This document shows, piece after piece, positions 23,873 through 37,921 of a DNA stretch of 39,162 nucleotides (position 1 is its first letter; each line of letters opens with the position of its first letter). This DNA is from Promethearchaeia archaeon (lineage in GTDB: Archaea; Asgardarchaeota; Lokiarchaeia; Sigyniarchaeales; SOKP01). Both the position numbers and the translations under genes were made by a program. The notes beneath the pieces were generated by a model. That model saw nothing but the letters and a program-made list of their open reading frames with translations, had not been told where the DNA came from and did no database searches. Location: assembly GCA_029856235.1 (NCBI GenBank), contig JAHQWP010000071.1:1-39162 (forward strand), read 5' to 3'.

Positions 23873-24003
23873 CAAATAAGAATTGCTTAATTATCATGGG
23901 ATAGATAATTTTTTTAGAAATAAAATATATCAATAAACATTCGATCTTTTCTCTTCATATTATGAATTTAGAAAAAATCGGGCCTGTAATCTAGTCTGGA
24001 TAA

Positions 24004-24031
24004 TTGTGCGATATTTTATCGAGCGATCCGA
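24004..24031 (+). other. BHB intron 1 of tRNA-Arg, D loop
   Basis: GGAT (23998-24001) pairs with ATCC (24026-24029) as the central 4-bp helix. The 3-nt bulges are AAT (24002-24004) and GAG (24030-24032). Inside the intron, TGT/GCG wobble pairs and CGATA/TATCG close a TTT loop. Cutting after the second base of each bulge defines the intron. Confidence 0.7.
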
Positions 24032-24056
24032 GGGGTACCCGGCTTCGGACTGGGAT

Positions 24057-24084
24057 GTCAGGTGGAAGATTCCATCGACCCAAA
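24057..24084 (+). other. BHB intron 2 of tRNA-Arg, variable loop
   Basis: TGGG (24051-24054, the 3' strand of the anticodon stem) pairs with CCCA (24079-24082) as the 4-bp helix, with bulges ATG (24055-24057) and AAG (24083-24085). The inner stem is TC/GA plus GGTGGA/TCCATC, with one bulged A, closing AGAT. Splicing restores variable loop ATGTC. Confidence 0.75.
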
Positions 24085-24400
24085 GTCGCAGGTTCGAATC
24101 CTGCCAGGCCCACTATTAATTTTATATTTCACAAATTTGTTAACAAAATATATTATTATTGGGAGTAATTTGTGGATCTTTGTTATAAAAAAACATAAAG
24201 GGCAGTTTCTTGTTAAATTATTGGGAAAGGGCACTATTTAGCTTTTTTACATTTTATAATAAATTTCCTTTTTCTCATTTTATATACGGGGATTACTTTT
24301 TTACACAAAAGTTACCATACATTTAAATATTATGAACACAATATAATGATCGTCTTTCCCAGTTTTGACCACAAATTACTCTTTTTACAAATAATGAAAA

Positions 24401-30429: not shown

Positions 30430-30486
30430 ATTCTATGAAAAACAAGCAAATTTCAATAATTTGAAATTAAAATGCCAAGAAGGGGA

Positions 30487-30517
30487 ATTTCATATTGTTG
30501 CGAATCGCAAAACACAC
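30487..30517 (-). other. BHB intron in the T loop of tRNA-Phe
   Basis: The T stem acts as the outer helix. TTCA (30520-30523) pairs with TGAA (30489-30492) as the central 4-bp helix, with 3-nt bulges AAG and ATT. The intron itself forms TTGCG/CGCAA around ATT. Cutting after the second base of each bulge gives exactly TTCAAA plus T, a normal 7-nt T loop (intron between positions 59 and 60). Confidence 0.85.
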
Positions 30518-30563
30518 TTTGAACCCCTGATACCCAGATCTTCAGTCTGGTGCGTTCCCGGGT

Positions 30564-30590
30564 TTCGCAGAACCTTGATATAAGGTTTCT
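30564..30590 (-). other. BHB intron in the D loop of tRNA-Phe
   Basis: CGTA (30593-30596) pairs with TGCG (30566-30569) as the central helix, with bulges GTA and AAA. The inner stem is a G-C pair, one bulged A, then AACCTT/AAGGTT around ATATC. The outer helix has only two G-C pairs. A 29-nt intron leaving AGCCCGGGA would give a more usual D loop, so the exact cuts are less sure than in the T loop. Confidence 0.65.
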
Positions 30591-30727
30591 ACTACGCCAC
30601 CTTGGCAGATTAGGGCTAATCTTAACTTGGAATTAAAAATACTCTTTTAATTCTAATTAAGATAGAAATAAAAGTAAGGAATGTCATAAAAATCTTTTTA
30701 GTTTTCGATCGAGCAAAGCATTAATTT

Positions 30728-36679: not shown

Positions 36680-37921
36680 TTATTTCTTTTCTTCTATGAT
36701 TTCTGTTTTCTTGTCTTTTCGATATTTGAGGATATGTTGATACAACTCTTCTAGGAACTTTTCGAATTCCATGGGGGCAAAAATCAAACCAAATTCTCTT
36801 TGGAGATTTAATTTTTCTAAATCTTCCCATTGTAATCCAACACCTAAAATCGGGATAAGATGTAATTCGTGTTCACGTGCGATGTTTAGTTCAAAAATAC
36901 TGTCCTTTGAGTTTAAGGAATTTTGAGTTGAGATAAAAGTTATAATTTGAGATTTTTGGATTGATTTTTTCATCCATTTATCAATATTCCCCGTAAGGTC
37001 CGCTTCGCAAAAATAAACATGCCCAATTTTTTTTTGCTCCCTAAGGAAATTCGCAATATCTTCAATACGGTAACGCTTAAAATCTTCAGTCGAATGGCTA
37101 ATAAACACGCGCATCCCTCTTTTAAGTCTTTTTCCTAATTCAAAATAGCGGATTGAAACTATTATGCCCAAAAGACAAATGATTATAATCATGAGCATGT
37201 AAAGAAACTCATCTGTGTATTCAGGAATTAAGTTTGATAACTGGTGGTATATATTGTAATAAAGCCAAAACAAGCTAAATAAAATAAAATGAGGTAGTTT
37301 AATTCTAATTCCAAAAAAGAAAATGTATGATGCTGCTAAATACACAAGCAATATTTGGAGTGTCGTAAATGTTGTTCCAATAATTGATAATGAAGGCTCT
37401 GAGATCAATTCCGGAATAATTAAAAAATGGTACAGTAATGTTATAATGAAGTAAATAAGGTAAAGAATTGCAAATGATGTGGCATAATTTCCATAGTCTT
37501 TTTCGTTATTAACCCCAAAATTGAAAAAGATAATGAAAATCGCAGACATGATAGCATAAGAGAGATACAAAGCAATCGTATCAAATACGCTAAATAGTGC
37601 GGGGTTCAATAATCGAATCAGCATTATAAGCAAGAAAAAAAATGCAATATGTATTAGAAAGAGAACATATCCTAATACCTTCAATGACATAGTTTTTTCA
37701 AATTCTCTTTTATTTTTTTGTAAATCATAGCCAGCAAAAATCAACAGGAAGATATAGAAATAACCTGAAAATAGAAATAGAAATGGATCAAAAAGATAAC
37801 CTAAATTTATTTCAGAATACCCATGAAAAAATGCCATCTCTAAAACAATCTCAATTAAAGTAAAAAAAACACTGAAGAATATAGCTATTAAAATCTGGTA
37901 AATTCTTTGAATGGAAATCAC
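36680..37921 (-). CDS. Polytopic membrane protein with C-terminal TIR domain
   Basis: A 413-residue protein. Residues 1-260 have about eight membrane helices (roughly 7-30, 45-64, 82-104, 115-134, 148-168, 178-203, 210-228, 240-257). Residues about 270-395 are a TIR-like domain: RVFISHSTED (271-280), VYFCEADLTGNIDKWM (302-317), then SQIITFIST and SIFELNIAREHEL (341-353), where Glu344 is at the place of the catalytic Glu of NAD-cleaving TIRs. The domain would face the cytosol. TIR domains act as NADases or as assembly modules in prokaryotic defence and signalling; the membrane part might be the sensor or the effector. It converges with the acyltransferase gene and is divergent from the DUF2769-like gene. 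Confidence 0.78.
   Translation of the reverse strand: MISIQRIYQILIAIFFSVFFTLIEIVLEMAFFHGYSEINLGYLFDPFLFLFSGYFYIFLLIFAGYDLQKNKREFEKTMSLKVLGYVLFLIHIAFFFLLIMLIRLLNPALFSVFDTIALYLSYAIMSAIFIIFFNFGVNNEKDYGNYATSFAILYLIYFIITLLYHFLIIPELISEPSLSIIGTTFTTLQILLVYLAASYIFFFGIRIKLPHFILFSLFWLYYNIYHQLSNLIPEYTDEFLYMLMIIIICLLGIIVSIRYFELGKRLKRGMRVFISHSTEDFKRYRIEDIANFLREQKKIGHVYFCEADLTGNIDKWMKKSIQKSQIITFISTQNSLNSKDSIFELNIAREHELHLIPILGVGLQWEDLEKLNLQREFGLIFAPMEFEKFLEELYQHILKYRKDKKTEIIEEKK

Follow-up and report, generated by a model that had tools for sequence, protein, structure and literature searches.

A Lokiarchaeial tRNA-Phe gene with two predicted non-canonical introns, and relatives of this gene with up to four

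Introduction

Non-canonical and multiple BHB introns in tRNA genes are known from the Thermoproteales (Sugahara et al. 2008, reviewed in PMC4090602 and PMC4033280). They are short, adopt the BHB or relaxed-BHB form, lie in the D, anticodon or T arm, can be several in one gene, and go together with a heteromeric endonuclease. Three introns is the maximum given for an archaeal tRNA gene in the tRNAscan-SE 2.0 paper and in a review. Efficient removal of relaxed-BHB introns is a property of the (αβ)2 and ε2 endonuclease types only, and in the enzyme of Aeropyrum pernix, a conserved Lys in the Crenarchaea-specific loop is responsible for broad specificity (PMC6379350). For Asgard archaea, main-text passages of a 2024 report state that 92-95% of the tRNA genes of Atabeyarchaeia and Freyarchaeia are intron-bearing, that the introns are often at non-canonical sites, and that more than half of the genes contain several; these passages describe neither a Lokiarchaeial tRNA-Phe nor four-intron genes (PMC11291895). 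Here, we analyse a tRNA-Phe gene from an Asgard archaeon belonging to the Lokiarchaeia, found on a 39,162-nucleotide stretch of DNA (the window), and compare it with its relatives.

Results and Discussion

Structure of the tRNA-Phe gene

The gene lies on the minus strand (Table 1) and reads GCCAAGG-TG-GCGT-AG (29 nt) CCCGGGA-ACGC-A-CCAGA-CTGAAGA-TCTGG-GTATC-AGGGG-TTCAAA (31 nt) T-CCCCT-TCTTGGC-A. A first-pass annotation, made from the sequence alone, had proposed a tRNA-Phe whose D and T loops are 38 nt each and whose anticodon loop has no intron at 37/38. Both points hold: the loops consist of 9+29 and 7+31 nt, and the anticodon loop is uninterrupted, so that this single gene has two predicted introns outside 37/38, at 15/16 and 59/60. 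Cloverleaf scoring by itself left the intron boundaries tied in many ways. Alignment to relatives resolved them: once the exons were chained to a common tRNA-Phe template, the junctions were unique, with no sliding ambiguity. With both introns out, what is left is the tRNA-Phe also encoded by about 40 relatives, whose genes have other sets of introns. The gene is called neither by ARAGORN nor by Rfam at the gathering score, as expected for a gene with 38-nt loops in both the D and the T arm.

Table 1. Coordinates in the window of the tRNA-Phe(GAA) gene, its predicted introns and BHB elements, and a second interrupted tRNA gene
Feature	Positions	Strand	Remarks
tRNA-Phe(GAA) gene	30606-30473	minus	134 nt; full-length, without encoded CCA
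Exon 1, positions 1-15	30592..30606	minus	GCCAAGGTGGCGTAG; same sequence in most relatives
D-loop intron, 29 nt, at 15/16, relaxed BHB	30563..30591	minus	TAGAAACCTTATATCAAGGTTCTGCGAAA; from alignment to relatives
D-loop BHB central helix, 5' strand GCGT, positions 10-13 (the D-stem 5' strand)	30594..30597	minus	
D-loop BHB central helix, 3' strand GCGA	30565..30568	minus	3 of 4 pairs
Exon 2, positions 16-59	30518..30562	minus	anticodon arm without interruption
Anticodon GAA	30541..30543	minus	
T-loop intron, 31 nt, at 59/60, strict BHB	30487..30517	minus	GTGTGTTTTGCGATTCGCAACAATATGAAAT; from alignment to relatives
T-loop BHB central helix, 5' strand TTCA, positions 54-57	30520..30523	minus	
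T-loop BHB central helix, 3' strand TGAA	30489..30492	minus	4 of 4 pairs
Exon 3, positions 60-73	30473..30486	minus	no CCA encoded
tRNA-Arg(TCG)	23980..24112	plus	two insertions outside 37/38 (D arm, variable loop); Rfam tRNA 40.5 bits over 133 nt

Upstream of the gene, before position 30606 on the minus strand, the stretch TTCCAAGTTAAGA is conserved ahead of tRNA-Phe in genomes of the same genus (L057, L053, L054), and is possibly a promoter element.

BHB geometry of the two introns

The T-loop intron conforms to the strict BHB, with a TTCA/TGAA central helix, 3-nt bulges AAG and ATT, and predicted cuts (arrows) at AA↓G and AT↓T, which restore TTCAAAT. This is the structure that had been read from the sequence at the outset, and the unique junctions at 59/60 agree with it. 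When the intron was randomly reordered, 2.1% of the resulting sequences had a correctly placed central helix with TTCA, and 0.17% had at least three inner pairs as well.

A weaker BHB had been noticed in the D loop, and such is the case. Its central helix, GCGT/GCGA, has three of four pairs, with bulges AG↓T and AA↓C; the relaxed form is present, and the strict form fails, G10 being opposite A. Similar mismatches of the outer pair are found in 10 of the 14 introns at 15/16 in the family, and the 3' end of the intron, (A/G)CGN-AA↓, is conserved among the relatives' introns at this position. The intron is missing where the D loop of relatives is uninterrupted (L050, L136 and L150).

The minimum-energy fold given by RNAfold is not the BHB (-40.3 kcal/mol with the T-loop BHB forced, versus -44.1). 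The case for the predicted BHB introns is carried by comparison between sequences, and not by folding energy.

Comparison across the tRNA-Phe family

Of 65 genomes belonging to the same family, 41 had a match to a search pattern made of the first 15 bases of tRNA-Phe; as these bases had to be unbroken in the main search, genes with an earlier intron escape it. The set analysed consists of 41 distinct tRNA-Phe genes readable to their end, including the window gene and a second copy from the same genome (see below). Their exons are almost invariant, and the introns vary in number, place and sequence.

For each of the 95 introns of this family, the four exon bases ending two before the 5' cut were compared with the four intron bases ending two before the 3' cut. 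At this exact BHB spacing, at least three of four central pairs form in 89 introns and all four in 61, a count slightly favoured by the use of the best-pairing cut point where several were equivalent (a freedom that the D and T introns of the window do not have), and lowered by the T-arm introns of L142, L145 and L148, mis-cut by the chaining and kept. L048, under-split by the chaining (its true sites are 15/16, 19/20 and 59/60), was also kept uncorrected in this count. The same exon bases set against other places in the introns gave 13% for at least three pairs and 1.6% for four, and exon bases set against introns of other positions gave 17% and 3.1%.

Pairs also change in a compensatory manner, with TCGG/CCGA and TCAG/CTGA at 52/53, and CACC/GGTG and CACT/AGTG at 30/31. 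When intron halves were swapped between species, about half of the hairpin energy was lost for T introns, and about 70% for D introns. The real mean hairpin energy was reached by none of 2000 permutations, in the D set as in the T set, shared ancestry being only partly corrected in this comparison. The predicted hairpins of the D and T introns thus covary between their halves. Kinship inflates these family figures, but it does not explain an exact spacing common to introns at different positions.

These comparisons bear on whether the insertions are removed at all. If they were retained, the mature tRNA-Phe would have long D and T loops, and the precursor with its insertions does fold stably. 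However, relatives with only one insertion, or with neither, have identical exons, and selection maintains the geometry of the BHB cuts. Moreover, a T loop of 38 nt is expected to break the contact between D loop and T loop. We regard retention as very unlikely.

Intron number and placement among relatives

Counting L048 as having three introns, the 41 tRNA-Phe genes comprise 2 without intron, 8 with one, 12 with two, 12 with three and 7 with four. The four-intron genes are L130, L137, L139, L142, L143, L145 and L155; L145 sits on the single 2.27-Mb contig of genome G054. Insertion sites in the family are 15/16, 19/20, 30/31, 51-54 and 59/60, and position 37/38 or a neighbouring site is interrupted in only three of the 41 genes. 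Within the window's own genus, the sets vary between species: 15+59; 15; 19+59; 19+53; 19+30+59; and 15+30+52. Such a dense comparative set, one gene in 41 copies with zero to four introns, makes rates of intron gain and loss, as well as splicing order, measurable.

Separately, T-loop introns GGGATTCGCCTTGAACGGATTCCGG are nearly identical between two genera (L059 on one side, L142, L145, L147 and L148 on the other), perhaps as a result of intron or gene transfer.

Copy number and function

An intronless tRNA-Phe(GAA) elsewhere in the genome, together with an absence of spliced reads from this locus, had been named at the outset as the sign of a pseudogene. No intronless copy turned up when the mature 74-nt sequence was searched against the whole genome; the only matches were the window gene and a second gene on contig C61 (L117, G000 C61:1-4000), both intron-bearing. 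The C61 copy is interrupted at the same two positions by introns of similar sequence, and next to it lies a homologue of the 179-aa reading frame that adjoins the window gene; the two regions are syntenic, with 82% DNA identity. It probably represents this locus in a co-binned relative, as contamination of the MAG is 8.3%. Nearly all relatives with a match have a single one. A cell having the window gene as its only tRNA-Phe must splice it, and we take this gene to be a functional, probably single-copy tRNA-Phe(GAA).

A tRNA pseudogene with random insertion damage would be in line with the failure of standard tRNA finders on the window gene. It would be recognised by damaged exons together with a second intact copy, a combination that was not found: the exons are intact, and the genome has no intronless tRNA-Phe. 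The C61 copy has the same two-intron architecture and the BHB geometry is conserved family-wide. We give a pseudogene slightly less credence than retention of the insertions. An assembly or binning artefact, which the fragmentation and contamination of the MAG could suggest, is the least probable of all and deserves hardly any weight, since independently assembled genomes of other species, the single-contig G054 among them, have introns at these positions too.

Splicing enzymes encoded in the genome

The type of splicing endonuclease, another check proposed by the first-pass annotation, turned out to be that of a heteromeric enzyme at the level of gene content. The genome encodes two PF01974 paralogues and one RtcB, that is, both endonuclease and ligase. 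The α subunit (200 aa; L031, 120-722) has Tyr141, His149, Lys180 and a CSL-like Lys loop, and is closest to A. pernix α (3p1z, E 7e-35). The β subunit (202 aa; L032) has neither the catalytic His nor the loop. These are the sequence features of an (αβ)2 EndA: two paralogues, with the His and the CSL-like Lys loop in α only.

Compared with the A. pernix (αβ)2 enzyme (PDB 3p1z, 3ajv; PMC6379350), the Lokiarchaeial α aligns over nearly its full length. Its K58 stands opposite the K of the A. pernix EKPRG loop, the catalytic His is also aligned, and in both organisms a separate β lacks the His. The Lokiarchaeial α and β are predicted to assemble as (αβ)2. With 8.3% contamination, an origin of the endonuclease genes in a co-binned relative is conceivable in principle, but this pair is shared by nearly all relatives. 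Every named relative of α comes from a Candidatus Lokiarchaeota or Lokiarchaeia MAG, with up to 95% identity, which places the window in the Lokiarchaeia. The open-access literature yielded nothing relevant on a Lokiarchaeota RNA-splicing endonuclease.

Exactly two PF01974 matches were found in most of the 94 Asgard genomes searched, and the sampled α and β sequences show the same pattern as the pair described here. The presence of this pair in most sampled Asgard genomes is relevant to how the eukaryotic TSEN complex arose. As a side observation, Asgard α subunits (L031 and homologues L064-L093) have a loop like the Crenarchaea-specific loop, Lys included; despite its name, this loop seems to occur outside the Crenarchaeota as well.

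A model for the splicing of tRNA-Phe

Taken together, the data point with high confidence to a functional, probably single-copy Lokiarchaeal tRNA-Phe(GAA), whose precursor would contain two protein-spliced introns, removed by a heteromeric endonuclease and RtcB. We infer cleavage, ligation, enzyme assembly and order of steps as follows. At the T-loop intron, pairing of exon bases 54-57 with the intron TGAA would give a 4-bp BHB central helix, stacked on the T stem, and the endonuclease would cut at AA↓G and AT↓T. For the D-loop intron, the pairing partners would be the future 5' strand of the D stem (10-13) and GCGA, close to the intron's end, and the cuts would fall at AG↓T and AA↓C. As bases 10-13 are engaged with the intron, the D stem would form only after splicing, or in competition with it. 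Cutting would be performed by a catalytic α (Tyr, His, Lys, CSL-like Lys loop) together with a His-less β, and the exons would be joined by RtcB, as suggested by established archaeal biology.

Relation to known multi-intron tRNA genes

The intron type of the window gene is already known, and is not a new kind. As in the Thermoproteales, the introns are short, of BHB and relaxed-BHB form, and multiple in one gene, alongside the gene set of a heteromeric endonuclease. Position 59/60 is a listed insertion point in PMC4090602, whereas 15/16 is absent from that list, itself non-exhaustive. The Thermoproteales belong to a different phylum, and their published maximum is three introns per gene, versus four in relatives of the window gene. 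It had been suggested that two introns per gene would be notable if the genome were Asgard. The genome is indeed that of a Lokiarchaeial Asgard, but the novelty was over-estimated: going by the passages of PMC11291895 cited above, Atabeyarchaeia and Freyarchaeia, which are different Asgard classes, also have multi-intron, non-canonical tRNA genes. Open-access literature held nothing relevant on four introns in one archaeal tRNA gene, and with respect to the published passages, the four introns of the relatives' tRNA-Phe would extend the known archaeal range.

With less assurance, we lean towards a wider proposal, in which Lokiarchaeial tRNA-Phe would be the most intron-interrupted tRNA gene described. 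It would have up to four BHB introns (7 of 41 genes), with every arm used, 37/38 almost abandoned, and gain or loss between congeneric species. What permits this outside the Thermoproteales would be an endonuclease of (αβ)2 type that has a CSL-like loop and occurs across Asgard archaea.

Other interrupted tRNA genes in the genome

In tRNA-Arg(TCG), also in the window (Table 1) and not called there by ARAGORN, removal of two putative introns, whose cut points are approximate, gives a full cloverleaf. Elsewhere in the genome, non-canonical introns were found in tRNA-Lys(CTT) at 59/60, in tRNA-Thr(TGT) in the D loop and at 59/60, and in tRNA-Arg(GCG) at 59/60; tRNA-Leu(CAA) has introns at about 31/32 and at 37/38. 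This inventory is partial and was read by hand from Rfam matches. A loose T-loop pattern gave 8 real against 6 control matches over the genome, and was used only for independently confirmed loci. Such introns explain how tRNA-Phe and other tRNAs can appear absent from Lokiarchaeial annotations.

Two similar tRNA-Ser(GCT) genes (L027 and L025 of G000) lie about 10 kb apart, at C211:2789 and C211:12613, each with a D-loop insertion. The window itself also encodes, at 36680-37921 on the minus strand, a 413-aa protein with a TIR domain (PF13676, E 4e-8).
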